Below, piece after piece: positions 1,113 to 5,842 of a stretch of 11,408 bases of DNA. The translations under genes and the position numbers were made by a program. The notes under the pieces were generated by a model. The model was not told the origin of the DNA. It did no database searches and was given only the letters and a program-made list of their open reading frames with translations. The stretch covers positions 1 through 11,408 of the forward strand of contig CAMPJI010000072.1 in NCBI GenBank assembly GCA_946886865.1, read 5' to 3'. The DNA comes from an uncultured Lysobacterales bacterium. GTDB lineage: Bacteria; Pseudomonadota; Gammaproteobacteria; Xanthomonadales; Xanthomonadaceae. Position 1 is the stretch's first letter. Every line of letters begins with the position of its first letter.

Positions 1113-1191
1113 TGTAGGAGCGGCTTCAGCCGCGATCGGTCGCCACCGTCGCCCTGCCGCCTCCACGATCGCGGCTGAAGCCGCTCCTACA
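1113..1191. repeat. Head-to-head pair of GTAG-type REP hairpins (BIME-like)
   Basis: Arms 1114-1138 and 1166-1190 are perfect 25-bp inverted copies, extended to 26 bp by T1113-A1191, around a 27-nt spacer. Each arm starts with GTAG when read inward and holds its own hairpin, GCGGCT-TC-AGCCGC (1120-1133 in the left arm). A GTAG head plus short palindrome is the style of REP elements of Xanthomonadaceae such as the SMAG repeats of Stenotrophomonas (established knowledge); membership here is inferred from form. It fills most of the oleC-oleD gap and could fold as one long hairpin in the mRNA. No U-tract follows, so it is not an obvious terminator. Confidence 0.85.
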
Positions 1192-2274: not shown

Positions 2275-2921
2275 TGACCCACACCCCCCCGCCGACACCG
2301 CTGGCCGCGCTCAAGCCGCTGGCCGGCCGCGCGCTGCAGGCTGCGCTCAACCGCGCGCTGGCGCTGGACCCGGATACCCGCGACAGCCTGCGCGCGCTCG
2401 ACGGCCGCACCGTCGCGCTGCGGCTGGCGTCGCCGCCGCTGGCGCTGCAGGTGCGCGTGGCCGGCGACCGGCTCGAAGTCGGGCCGGTGCCGGACGCGCA
2501 GGAACCCGACCTCTCGGTGCGCAGCACCCTCGGCGGCCTGCTGTCGCAGCTGCCGTTCCTGCGGGACGACAGGTCCGCGCCGGTGGGCCAGCTGCGCATC
2601 GAGGGCGATGCCGACCTTGCCCGCCGCCTGCAGCGCATGGCCGAGCGCTTCGACCCGGACTGGCAGCAGCCGTTCGTGGCGGTGATGGGTGAGGTGATCG
2701 GCGTGCAGGTGGCGCAGGCCGTGGCCGGTGCGCTGCGGCATGCGCGCAGCGCCGGCTCGGCGTTCGCGACCAGCGCGGCCGAGTACGTCACCGAGGAGTC
2801 GCGCGACGTGGTCGGTCGCGCCGAGCTCAACGCCTTCCACGACGACGTCGACGCCGTGCGCGACGACGTGGAGCGGCTCGCCGCGCGCGTGTCGCGCTTG
2901 GGCGGCGGAGCGCCGCGATGA
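2274..2921 (+). CDS. ubiJ: UbiJ, SCP2-domain ubiquinone biosynthesis accessory factor
   Basis: A 215-residue protein. Residues about 15-125 fit the SCP2 sterol-carrier-like lipid-binding fold, with alternating strands such as [18 protein letters not shown] followed by the [14 protein letters not shown] segment. The C-terminal part has the UbiJ-specific EYVTEE motif (170-175) and an amphipathic coiled-coil-like helix, [19 protein letters not shown] (188-206). UbiJ is a non-catalytic member of the soluble Ubi complex and is thought to hold hydrophobic quinone intermediates for the hydroxylases and methylases. Start ATG 2274 is preferred to in-frame ATGs at 2235 and 2265 because a -10-like TAGAAT sits directly before it. 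The stop overlaps the ubiB start by 4 bases (ATGA), implying translational coupling. Many proteobacteria have ubiE in front; here oleD occupies that place. Confidence 0.88.
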
Positions 2922-4591
2922 AGTCGGCGCTGCGTGCCTGGCGCATCGGCCGCGTGCTGCTGCGCTACCGCCTGGACGCGCTGGCCGACGACACCCCCGC
3001 CGAGCGCTGGCTGAAACTGGCGCGGCCGTTCGTGCCGCGGGCCTCGCGCGAGATCGAGGCGATGCCGCGTGGCGCGCGGCTGCGCATGGCGCTGCAGGAG
3101 CTGGGGCCGATCTTCGTCAAGTTCGGACAGATCCTCTCGACCCGCCGCGACCTGGTGCCGCCGGACGTCGCCGAAGAGCTCACGTTGCTGCAGGACCGCG
3201 TCGCGCCGTTCGACGGCGACGCCGCGCGCGCCATCGTCGAGCAGGCGCTGGACCGGCCGGTCGCGGAGGCGTTCGAACACTTCGACACCGCCCCGCTGGC
3301 CTCGGCCTCGATCGCCCAGGTGCACGCCGCCGTGCTGCCGGCCACCGCCACCGCGCCGGCGCGCGAGGTGGTGGTCAAGGTGCTGCGTCCCGGCATCCGC
3401 CGCCAGATCGCCGCCGATGTCGCGCTGCTCAAGACGATGGCCGGCGTGGTCGAGCGCACCCACCCCAACGCCGACAAGATCCGCCCGCGTGAGATCGTCG
3501 CCGAGATCGAGCACACCCTGGCCGCGGAACTGGACCTGCAGCGCGAGGGCGCCAATGCCAGCGTGCTGCGGCGCTTCTGGCAGTACAGCGACGATCTGTA
3601 CGTGCCGGAGGTGGTGTGGAGCCACACCGGCGAGCGCGTACTGACCCTCGAGCGCGTGCGTGGCATCCCGTCCGACGACATCGCCGCGCTGGACGCGGCC
3701 GGCATCGACCGCCGCGCGCTGGCCGCCAAGGGCGTGCGGGTGTTCTACACGCAGGTGTTCCGCGACAACTTCTTCCACGCCGATGCGCACGCCGGCAACA
3801 TCTGGGTCGACAGCGACCCGGCGCGCCGCGACAACCCGCGCTTCATCGCGCTGGACTTCGGGATCATGGGCCAGCTGTCGGACGAGGACCAGTACTACCT
3901 CGCCGAGAACTTCATGGCGATCTTCAACCGCGACTACCGTCGCATCGCCGAGCTGCACGTGCAGGCCGGCTGGATGCCCTCGCACATCCGCATCGATGAA
4001 CTCGAAGCTGCCGCGCGCTCGGTGTGCGAGCCGTACTTCACCCGCCCGTTGAGCGAGATCTCGCTGGCCGAGGTGCTGGTGAAGCTGTTCAAGGTCGCCC
4101 AGCGCCATGAACTGACCCTGCAGCCGCAGCTGATCCTTCTGCAGAAGACGCTGCTCAACATCGAGGGCGTGGGCCGCCTGCTGGATCCCAAGCTGGACAT
4201 CTGGGCGGTGGCGCGCCCGGTGCTGCAGCGCATTCTGGTGGAGCGCTACAGCCCGCAGAGGCTGGCCGCGGAATTCCGCAAGCGCCTGCCGGAGTTCGTC
4301 ACCCGCGCGCCGGAGATGCCGCGCCTGCTGCACGCGTGGCTCAGCCAGCAGGTCGAAGGCCGGCACGAACTGCGCATGCGCTCGGACGACCTGGCGCAAC
4401 TGACGCGCTCGGTGCGCGAGGCACAGAAGCGCACCGTCGCCGCGATCCTGGGCACCGGCCTGCTGATCGTCGCCGCCGTGCTGTACGGGCTGGAGGCGGG
4501 CGGGCCGTCGCTGTGGTCGATCCCGGCGTCGGCGTGGATCGCCGGCCTGGGCGGGCTCTGGGCGCTGCTGGCGGCGTGGCCGCGGCGGTAG
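2918..4591 (+). CDS. ubiB: UbiB, atypical kinase/ATPase of ubiquinone biosynthesis
   Basis: A 557-residue ABC1/ADCK/UbiB-family protein, the usual length for UbiB. Family marks in order are the KxGQ motif (KFGQ, 68-71), the Ala-rich nucleotide loop [11 protein letters not shown] (126-136), the ATP-site lysine VVVK (K154), the ExD motif (E204/D206), the catalytic-loop region HADAHAGN (287-294) and DFG (D313). Two hydrophobic segments near residues 507-524 and 535-553 anchor it in the inner membrane. UbiB is required for coenzyme Q synthesis and is believed to act as an ATPase that helps move Q precursors out of the membrane, rather than as a protein kinase or hydroxylase as once suggested. ATG 2918 overlaps the ubiJ stop. 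HADAHAGN has Ala where E. coli UbiB has Pro (HADMHPGN as recalled), probably a lineage difference. Confidence 0.95.
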
Positions 4592-4619: not shown

Positions 4620-4661
4620 ACTCCCTCCCCTGCCTGCAGGGGAGGGTTGGGGAGGGGTGCT
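4620..4661 (+). repeat. Palindromic CTCCCCTGC/GCAGGGGAG repeat, left copy
   Basis: The copy consists of a perfect 11-bp hairpin (CCCTCCCCTGC 4623-4633, 2-nt centre, GCAGGGGAGGG 4636-4646), then a G-rich tail TTGGGGAGGGGTGCT (4647-4661). Its reverse complement matches 5057-5100 at all 40 positions outside the hairpin centre. It lies 28 bases after the ubiB stop, so it could also affect the 3' end of the ubi mRNA. No T-run follows the hairpin. Confidence 0.9.
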
Positions 4662-4709
4662 TTGAACCCGCGAACCCCATGGAGCAATGCCGCATGGAGC
4701 GCGACATCG

Positions 4710-5054
4710 ATGCAACGGATCTGGCACCACGCCCGCGACCTTCGAACCAACGCCACCGACGCCGAACGGCGACTGTGGCGGCACCTGAAGGGTCGCCAGC
4801 TATGCGGCCTGAAGTTTCGCCGCCAGTTCGCGATCGCAGGCTTCGTCGCCGACTTCGCATGCGTCGAGATCAATCTGGTGGTCGAACTCGATGGCGGACA
4901 GCACAGTGAGCGCGCGGCGGAAGACGCATCGCGCACGAAGCGCATCGAAGCGAATGGTTACCGTGTGCTGCGTTTCTGGAACGACGATGTGCTGACGAGG
5001 ACGGATGCAGTGCTGGACGAAATCCACCGACATGTCGAAGAGATGACCGCTTGA
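4710..5054 (+). CDS. DUF559 protein, Vsr-like endonuclease-fold protein of unknown role
   Basis: A 114-residue protein that matches the DUF559 pattern: an N-terminal helix with HARDLRTNATDAERRLWRHL, then LKFRRQFAIAGFVADF. The likely active-site segment is D48...E59-L-D61-GGQH65, followed by YRVLRFWNDDVL (84-95) near the end. DUF559 is related in fold to very-short-patch-repair (Vsr) endonucleases, but its biological function is not established, and nuclease activity is inferred from the conserved Asp/Glu/His set. Start ATG 4710 gives the usual family N-terminus; GGAG at 4695-4698 is 11 bases upstream, a long spacer. Nearby cytosine methylase genes, the expected partners of a true Vsr, are absent. 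Base composition is lower in GC than the flanking genes, and the gene is enclosed by inverted palindromic repeats. Both suggest arrival by transfer. Confidence 0.82.
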   Translation: MQRIWHHARDLRTNATDAERRLWRHLKGRQLCGLKFRRQFAIAGFVADFACVEINLVVELDGGQHSERAAEDASRTKRIEANGYRVLRFWNDDVLTRTDAVLDEIHRHVEEMTA

Positions 5055-5842
5055 ACAGCACCCCTCCCCAACCCTCCCCTGCGGTCGCAGGGGAGGGAGT
5101 AGATGCGTCGCTGCTCGCACTCGGCGTGCTCTATCGCGACGACCGGCTGGCCGTGGTCAACAAGCCCGCCGGGCTGATGGTCCACGACAGCGCACTTGCA
5201 CGTGGCGAGACGGACTTCGCGGCCGACCGGCTGCGCGAGCAGTTCGGCCGGCCCATCTTCCTGGTGCACCGGTTGGACCGTGCGACCAGCGGCTGCCTGC
5301 TGCTGGCGTTCGACCGCGACACGGCCTCGGCGCTGGGCAAGGTGCTGATGTCGCGCGAGGTCGAGAAGGACTACTGGGCGGTGTGCCGTGGCTGGCCGGA
5401 GGCGGCGTTCACCATCGACCACGACCTCGACGGCGGTCCGGGCAAGCCGCTGAAGAAACCGGCGGTGACGCGGTTCGAGCGACGGGCGTCGGTGGAGCTG
5501 GCGTTGCCATCGACCGGCTTCGAGACCTCGCGTTACGCGTGGCTGTCGGCGCACCCGGAGACCGGGCGCTTCCGCCAGATCCGCCGCCACCTCAAGCACG
5601 CCAGCCACCACCTGATCGGTGACACCAGCCACGGCGACGGCCGCCACAACCGCACGTTCCGGATGATGGGCATCCACCGCATGCTGCTGCACGCGCGGCG
5701 GCTGGCGTTCGCGCATCCCGTGCATGGCGGGGCGGTCGAAGCCGTTGCGCCGGTGGACGCGCCGTTCCAGCGCGCACTCGACCTGTTCGGTGCGCCCGGC
5801 GCACCGGCTGCACCAATGGAAACGGCCGACGCCCCGCGCTGA
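5051..5842 (+). CDS. truC: TruC-like RluA-family tRNA pseudouridine synthase
   Basis: The core is an RluA-family pseudouridine synthase resembling E. coli TruC, which isomerises U65 in tRNA. Visible marks are VNKPAGLMVHDS (about 36-47), the catalytic motif HRLDRATSG (73-81, nucleophile D76), TGRFRQIRRHLKHASHHLIGD and the C-terminal RMLLHARRLAFAHP. The start is uncertain. TTG 5051 gives 263 residues, has AGAG at 5039-5042 with an 8-nt spacer and overlaps the DUF559 stop, but then about 15 N-terminal residues (STPPQPSPAVAGEG...) come from the palindromic repeat. GTG 5126 would begin VLYRDDRL, close to the E. coli N-terminus, but has no clear ribosome site. No in-frame ATG lies between. It is convergent with the DUF2059 gene, 27 bp away. 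Another RluA-type specificity is possible. Confidence 0.82.
   Translation: MNSTPPQPSPAVAGEGVDASLLALGVLYRDDRLAVVNKPAGLMVHDSALARGETDFAADRLREQFGRPIFLVHRLDRATSGCLLLAFDRDTASALGKVLMSREVEKDYWAVCRGWPEAAFTIDHDLDGGPGKPLKKPAVTRFERRASVELALPSTGFETSRYAWLSAHPETGRFRQIRRHLKHASHHLIGDTSHGDGRHNRTFRMMGIHRMLLHARRLAFAHPVHGGAVEAVAPVDAPFQRALDLFGAPGAPAAPMETADAPR
5057..5100 (-). repeat. Palindromic CTCCCCTGC/GCAGGGGAG repeat, right copy (inverted)
   Basis: The reverse-complement partner of the repeat at 4620-4661. Its parts are an inward-facing AGCACCCCTCCCCAA segment (5057-5071), an 11-bp hairpin arm 5072-5082, a GGTC loop 5083-5086 and an 11-bp arm 5087-5097. It starts 2 bases after the DUF559 stop and lies inside the open frame leading into truC, where it encodes a Pro/Gly-rich run. 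In a transcript spanning the cassette the two copies could pair over about 40 bp. Confidence 0.9.

Follow-up and report, generated by a model that had tools for sequence, protein, structure and literature searches.

The window, the whole stretch of 11,408 nt analysed here (GC 0.72), probably represents an occupied copy of a two-part system, in which a DUF559 gene and triplex-motif repeats with tails directed at it would form a partnership resembling that of REP/RAYT. Bracketing of DUF559 genes by such repeats is general among the sampled Pseudomonadota, and their proximity, orientation and co-occurrence make it very likely that the repeat has its dedicated partner enzyme in DUF559. This link itself is strong, and movement of the repeat by DUF559 is what we infer. 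BoxC/PIT/TM repeats were spotted in E. coli in the 1990s, with origin and spread unexplained since, according to the available text of a 2015 survey (PMC4666352). With a compact, conserved nuclease linked to these repeats across many genomes, their spread becomes open to testing, both through ycjD of E. coli K-12 and in vitro, and DUF559, a widespread family of "unknown function", gains a concrete candidate substrate.

The DUF559 gene and its two triplex-motif repeats

The window's closest DUF559 and ubiB relatives among the matches listed belong to Lysobacter. As proposed in an earlier, sequence-only reading, a single DUF559 gene of lower GC (0.62, compared with 0.71 for ubiB and truC) lies between two inverted copies of one repeat and is the only ORF between them (Table 1). 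Its GC3 is likewise 0.73, compared with 0.95 for ubiB and 0.88 for truC. Read on the same strand, the two copies have 14 + 26 = 40 positions in common, and their sole difference is the hairpin loop, CT on the left and GACC on the right. An inverted-repeat scan returned a 26-nt perfect inverted match between them, and their predicted hairpin folding energies are -27.5 and -25.6 kcal/mol (z -1.9 and -3.8).

Table 1. Coordinates of the DUF559 gene, its flanking repeats and the host genes in the window
Feature	Position	Strand	Basis or remark
ABC1/UbiB family kinase gene, left host gene	2918-4591	+	Pfam profile
Left triplex-motif repeat	4620-4661	+	sequence comparison
Left repeat, arm	4623-4633		
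Left repeat, loop	4634-4635		
Left repeat, purine arm	4636-4646		
Left repeat, linker TT	4647-4648		
Left repeat, tail GGGGAGGGG	4649-4657		points to DUF559 gene
DUF559 (PF04480) gene, PD-(D/E)XK / Vsr-like, 113 aa	4713-5054	+	Pfam match
RNA pseudouridine synthase gene (truC/rluA type), right host gene	5051-5842	+	RNA pseudouridylate synthase profile
Right triplex-motif repeat, inverted copy	5057-5100	-	sequence comparison
Right repeat, tail	5061-5069		
Right repeat, linker	5070-5071		
Right repeat, arms	5072-5082 and 5087-5097		
Right repeat, loop	5083-5086		

The same reading had treated the repeat as a plain hairpin and the unit as a possible undescribed mini-element, a view that has to be revised on both points, as the repeat is really a hairpin with a mirror tail and belongs to the BoxC/PIT/TM triplex motifs (PMC4666352). 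Its arms can pair in Watson-Crick fashion, and the tail mirrors the purine arm, with T permitted opposite A. The left tail is a mirror image of the purine core GGGGAGGG with an added G, so that the repeat follows the triplex rule (G on G, A or T on A) in the form GGGGAGGG / TT / G+GGGAGGGG, and the right tail is likewise directed at the DUF559 gene. BoxC, PIT element and TM denote one motif with 23 copies in E. coli MG1655, laid out as pyrimidine arm, loop, purine arm, short loop and purine third strand; it folds into a stable triplex in vitro, for which no support was obtained in vivo, its copy number differs greatly between close strains, five inverted pairs are known, and it has been tied to genomic instability (PMC4666352). 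The TMECO pattern as printed there, CCCTCNCCC N3-6 GGGNGAGGG N3 GGGNGAGGG, is not matched by the window repeat, whose arms CCCTCCCCTGC / GCAGGGGAGGG represent a variant class (GGGGAGGG) outside it. Judged by its sequence, the window repeat is a variant of this known intrastrand-triplex motif. Copies like those of E. coli flank many DUF559 genes, and a GAGAGGG..GGGTGAGG repeat type is present at DUF559 loci of relatives.

The mirror relation was assessed on units from 207 non-redundant DUF559 loci. Among 301 inward-read hairpins with asymmetric arms, the tail agreed better with a mirror of the arm in 150 and with a direct repeat in 33 (118 ties); counted per distinct arm sequence, the figures are 39 vs 7 with 8 ties. 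The mirror score was 0.896 for the hairpins' own tails vs 0.802 for shuffled tails, with 0.818 as the top of 2000 shuffles. Purine-motif intrastrand triplexes pair by this same mirror rule, and arm, opposite arm and tail co-vary, as far as aligned letters can tell, in the way that such a triplex demands. Linker types on the two sides of the gene agreed in 14 of 43 loci, with 0.36 as the expected fraction, and carried no signal. At several loci, including L202, L153 and L178, a second hairpin is seen by eye to separate the purine arm from the third strand, and the two still mirror each other.

The open frame of the synthase begins with TTG at 5051, the putative start codon, overlaps the DUF559 stop codon and passes through the right repeat. 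Both in the window (5051-5110) and in L258, this frame begins at the stop codon of DUF559, and its start reads through the repeat as MNSTPPQPSPAVAGEG.. and MNASPLPNPPLHSQGRE.., respectively, and the predicted frames indicate that the repeat is turned into in-frame coding sequence at the synthase start.

Repeats at DUF559 genes of other genomes

In set A, comprising the best 80 of 502 DUF559 relatives and taken from genome contigs, inverted repeats surround the DUF559 gene in 66 of 79 relatives vs 2 of 237 random segments from the same loci (L072 left out). A phylum sample was added because less dependence on similarity to the window was wanted; 249 genomes were searched with the Pfam profile, and 92 loci standing high in the match list were taken, weak DUF559 matches therefore being under-sampled. 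All loci were scored alike: within 230 bp of the gene there had to be a perfect hairpin, 8 pairs or longer and G-rich in its purine arm, followed within 50 nt by a tail matching the mirror of the arm at 0.85 or better (T allowed for A). A gene-facing tail was found at 71 of 91 DUF559 genes in the phylum sample (upper part of the match list, one duplicate removed), on both sides in 42; at 62 of 76 genes in set A, on both sides in 44; and at 17 of 23 genes in a Lysobacterales sample, on both sides in 4. The last comprises 23 of the 29 loci L112-L140, after removal of duplicate, short and fragmentary ones. The same inward tails occurred at none of 28 Vsr genes of the phylum sample, none of 26 ubiB genes, 10 of 400 random segments and 3 of 182 locus edges. 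Loci with short flanks were left out of these counts (76 of 80 used in set A, 28 of 30 for Vsr and 26 of 30 for ubiB). The enrichment of the repeat at DUF559 genes is strong, and the general bracketing that had been considered from the window is borne out.

DUF559 loci favour the inward orientation without following it strictly. Outward tails were found on some side at 39 of 91 genes and on both sides at 3 in the phylum sample, and at 23 and 9 of 76 genes, respectively, in set A; tails matching the mirror at 0.9 or better followed 271 of 382 inward-read vs 90 of 358 outward-read hairpins of DUF559 loci. Exceptions in the phylum sample include 20 of 91 DUF559 genes where no mirror-tail unit faces inward, and at 8 of 91 there is no purine hairpin at all. 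Beyond Pseudomonadota, the sequences of relatives in assemblies labelled as other phyla contain the bracketing as well: similar flanks occur in those labelled Desulfoferrobacter (L013), Nitrospirales (L070) and Omnitrophica (L054), and one labelled Acidobacteria (L072) has such a flank on the upstream side. Inspection by eye of plasmid loci revealed both-sided repeats in three cyanobacterial cases, inward in L335 and mixed in L333 and L334, outward repeats on both sides in cyanobacterial L337 and in Deinococcus L338 and L339, a repeat on one side in cyanobacterial L336, and a full, outward unit upstream of the gene in Azospirillum (L340). The unit as a whole seems seldom to have been duplicated recently: of 49 within-genome pairs, a single one reaches 80% or more, in a comparison where some loci were read on the wrong strand.

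The flanking hairpins might instead insulate the nuclease gene as terminators or translational brakes, the spread of the repeat being unrelated. The predicted folding of both window repeats and their short spacing to the gene agree with such a role, but Vsr and ubiB genes show no such repeats, a third-strand tail held to the mirror rule would be needless for a terminator, and earlier work cited in PMC4666352 reported the motif to be without promoter or terminator activity, which leaves this explanation very improbable.

The partnership reading is also supported by co-variation between repeat and enzyme. On a DUF559 tree, flanking repeats switch class 43 times over 152 rows vs 68.4 times when shuffled (lowest of 300 shuffles, 63), and 15 vs 23.4 times (lowest 19) in a Lysobacterales subset of 49 rows, a test that removes host relatedness only partly. 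The tree covers 201 of 207 rows, those with stops or fewer than 85 aa being left out, and is weakly resolved, with 106 columns. Comparison of the repeat class with that of the nearest within-genome homologue was neutral (8 of 16). It seems from these alignments that repeat class tends to follow the DUF559 tree.

At the ubiB-truC junction, whose state in relatives had been named earlier as a point to check, unoccupied copies lack both the gene and the repeat. Among 30 Lysobacterales ubiB loci, only L258 (L. niastensis) carries DUF559 and both repeats at the window's junction. In six others (L265, L268, L270, L272, L278 and L286), the synthase directly follows ubiB without DUF559, the two host genes abutting in L268, for example; in nine, 0.5-0.8 kb separates ubiB from the synthase, and in fourteen no synthase match falls within the stretch covered. 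No motif or purine-arm hairpin was found at the junction in the 29 ubiB loci without DUF559, and the sole purine hairpin within 1.5 kb downstream among them lies past the synthase in L268. The exact insertion boundary cannot be fixed because the empty junctions are too diverged. Other palindromes occupy the ubiB-truC junction in L272 and L286. Neither of the two outcomes given in the sequence-only reading as contrary to its proposal was encountered, the repeat being enriched at DUF559 genes and empty junctions being present in relatives.

Scattered copies and their co-occurrence with DUF559

Scattered copies were counted with a strict motif, a single pattern of 18 nt by which several variant classes go undetected. 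In Lysobacterales, this motif is present in 19 of 27 genomes with DUF559 (E <1e-20) vs 4 of 74 others (Fisher 8e-11), with 813 vs 32 copies; in the phylum sample, it is present in 41 of 62 genomes with DUF559 (E <1e-10) vs 24 of 187 others (Fisher 3e-15), with 1287 vs 276 copies. DUF559 had itself led to the genome at the centre of both samples. The association holds for genomes below 4 Mb (17/30 vs 13/128) and above 4 Mb (24/32 vs 11/59). Vsr, used as a control, gave 20 of 54 genomes with vs 45 of 195 without it (odds ratio 2.0, p 0.05), an effect that shrinks within DUF559 strata (15/21 vs 26/41 and 5/33 vs 19/154), and the Y1 (IS200/RAYT-type) transposase control showed no link (39/143 vs 26/106, p 0.66). 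These motif counts show that scattered copies abound in the genomes that have DUF559. Such an association could in principle be a host-ecology artefact, DUF559 and the repeat being common in the same kinds of genome and coming together by chance or shared transfer; both are patchy, and E. coli counts vary with lineage. Since the proximity controls speak against it, this idea is largely refuted and barely credible: both-sided bracketing cannot stem from genome-level co-occurrence, and in the same genomes the link is weak or absent for the two control enzymes, Vsr and Y1 transposase.

The strict motif also occurs in 24 of 187 phylum-sample genomes with weak or no DUF559 matches, at up to 88 copies. 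Three of these cases (G255, G313 and G171) hold 40-88 copies without a strong DUF559 match, which may be relics after enzyme loss or belong with a different partner. MTES_1575 was considered as a hidden partner in nine repeat-bearing genomes without DUF559 and appeared unconvincing, being found in 3 of 9, each time within a frame of 1863-2404 aa. Counts for a reversed-motif control were near zero except in G032, G042, G098, G171 and G304. G032 and G042 (also L122 and L124) contain DUF559 and lack the strict motif; these two genomes have 100 and 53 reversed-pattern matches, perhaps a separate variant repeat family.

The arrangement of scattered copies was followed from 40 seeds hand-picked from the first-listed places of the strict-motif scans. 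Single copies accounted for 25 of them, and 15 had a neighbour within 400 bp; of these pairs, 6 face in, 7 face out (two of the 7 overlap and are perhaps one unit) and 2 have both copies on the same strand only. A REPIN-like pairing of scattered copies was accordingly rejected, the copies being mostly single with inward and outward pairs about equal.

YcjD is the DUF559 protein of E. coli K-12. An intact motif lies about 170 bp past the 3' end of ycjD with its tail pointing away from the gene, a degenerate motif overlaps the 3' end, and none was seen by eye upstream. The gene was found in 3365 of 5426 complete E. coli genomes. In 59 chromosomes spread over 5422 matching records (one plasmid row of 60 dropped), motif-like places numbered 13-30 (median 21) in 37 rows with ycjD, after subtraction of the ycjD place, and 2-23 (median 6.5) in 22 rows without it (Mann-Whitney 3e-8); these places are blastn matches (E up to 10) to a query of motif plus ycjD, not strict motif counts. 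As E. coli strains are not independent of lineage, the count supports the link and cannot separate the enzyme from lineage. The three opened strains without ycjD carry a TetR/RND operon at the ycjD site, so that E. coli ycjD was set aside as a clean empty site; occupancy by ycjD or by this operon differs by phylogroup (PMC12817139). In the fabI-sapF region, ycjD and the RND efflux operon hold the same place in different E. coli lineages. A filled/empty pair of E. coli for a single repeat was also discarded as a clean site, as the intergenic region is rewritten and its boundary unclean, and no movement of the repeat was seen in any of the comparisons.

The putative nuclease and the spread of the repeat

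The window protein is a member of PF04480 (135.2 bits vs a curated cut-off of 20.6; E 1e-39); it scores 105.8 bits with the YcjD model NF007294, below the 218-bit cut-off of that model. Besides DUF559, the only Pfam match at E 0.001 is MTES_1575, below cut-off, on which ground a classical transposase was dismissed; the Vsr profile PF03852 gives no match at this threshold. A defence system was also rejected, PADLOC matches being weak only (best E 1.3e-4, to Hhe). Across mobile elements, DUF559 relatives (tblastn E 1e-5) occur in 2 of 50,697 phage records and 43 of 72,556 plasmid records. In 59 DUF559 sequences, 16 columns are invariant, including E18, D47, E58, D60, G61, G62, Q63 and H64. The AF2 model of the window protein (pLDDT 89.6) has as its top fold match 3hrl, a putative endonuclease of Neisseria (E 1e-8), which by sequence, too, is nearest among solved structures (E 2.6e-26), followed by the catalytic domain of the homing endonuclease I-Bth0305I (3r3p, E 3e-4) and, more weakly, by PvuRts1I (E 0.0096) and Vsr (1vsr, E 0.012). 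YcjD has been assigned to the PD-(D/E)XK superfamily near Vsr (PMC1189080), and DUF559/YcjD is known as a putative Vsr-like nuclease (PMC1189080, PMC12907096). Based on the invariant residues, the nuclease fold matches and the family placement, the catalytic residues of the putative nuclease are probably intact. The window protein appears to be an ordinary member of the DUF559/YcjD family, with a solved relative in 3hrl and conserved residues; unlike in descriptions of that family in the literature searched, a repeat partner is proposed for it here. Its likeness to Vsr is one of predicted fold only.

The mechanism regarded as most likely for the repeats is propagation via nuclease-induced repair, to which we assign roughly even chances, with maintenance and homing as its main rivals. 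DUF559 would recognise the repeat, perhaps in a folded, single-stranded form on the template of the lagging strand, a step that is plausible and somewhat doubtful. It would then cut beside the repeat, and repair of the break would spread or keep copies, a proposal that stands about in the balance; the models for such spread are the action of RAYT on REPs and that of homing endonucleases via break repair. The gene with its two end repeats would represent the autonomous unit, and the remaining copies, numbering tens to hundreds, would be non-autonomous. The adherence of the tail to the mirror rule makes recognition of a triplex attractive, but the protein might also read the same repeat sequence as a duplex. 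To our knowledge, no enzyme has an intrastrand DNA triplex as its natural substrate. That DUF559 is the propagation enzyme of BoxC/PIT repeats, a PD-(D/E)XK nuclease reading a DNA triple helix as its signal, is put forward tentatively; with similar reserve, it could be viewed as a second, independent solution to the spreading of REP-type repeats.

Homing offers another account, in which a free-standing homing-type DUF559 endonuclease inserts at triplex repeats that spread otherwise. The second-best solved fold, the GC and GC3 of the gene, unlike those of its neighbours, and the occurrence of one to few DUF559 genes alongside up to 289 strict motifs per genome are compatible with such a parasite. 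However, repeats are more abundant where DUF559 is present, both between genomes and within E. coli, the inward bias is found at DUF559 loci and not in scattered pairs, and junctions without DUF559 are also without the repeat. Homing is considered unlikely; the likeness to I-Bth0305I is to its catalytic-domain fold in a predicted model only, and, in contrast to that enzyme, the window gene is bracketed by a dispersed repeat. Maintenance or repair, the other rival, would have DUF559 process triplex-stalled replication or mismatches at the repeats in a Vsr-like manner, with repeat-rich genomes keeping the enzyme and the repeats multiplying by other means. Vsr is among the fold matches, the motif is the one linked to genomic instability (PMC4666352), and when Caulobacter cells are deprived of a cytosine methyltransferase, their DNA-damage response is reported to need VsrA, a DUF559 protein (PMC12907096). 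Neither the inward-facing repeats around the enzyme's own gene nor the tendency of repeat type to track the enzyme's tree is explained in this way, and maintenance appears an improbable account.

Compared with known systems, propagation by DUF559 is closest to REP/RAYT, a likeness of layout and dedicated enzyme-repeat link that had been suggested for the window and that bracketing, co-occurrence and co-variation support. Shared traits of the window system include a small nuclease gene flanked by inverted hairpin repeats that bear a tag on one side, numerous scattered copies, and a repeat type that tends to follow the enzyme. In contrast to REP/RAYT, the enzyme is the PD-(D/E)XK-like DUF559 and not an HUH (Y1) transposase, the tag is a purine third strand and not GTAG (or CGTC), and the triplex repeat does not co-occur with Y1_Tnp. 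GTAG is found just outside the right window copy (5099-5102) and is absent at the left copy, and therefore is not part of the window repeat. As HUH enzyme and GTAG tag both fail, the system would work like a REPtron without being one. With BoxC/PIT/TM of E. coli it has in common the build of arm, loop, purine arm, short loop and third strand, one E. coli copy adjoining ycjD; the gene association and mobility function proposed here set it apart from that motif as reported, neither being given alongside it in the available text of the 2015 survey (PMC4666352). The literature searched, with most subscription journals outside the search, contained no paper treating DUF559 or ycjD together with a triplex and no repeat partner of the DUF559/YcjD family.

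A second, different palindrome is present elsewhere in the window (1113-1191), comprising a 26-nt perfect inverted repeat, TGTAGGAGCGGCTTCAGCCGCGATCG, with copies 27 nt apart, a folding z of -8.6 and a GTAG adjoining the hairpin, which looks to us like an ordinary RAYT-type REP pair. A sequence resembling this palindrome is present at the ubiB-truC junction of L286.
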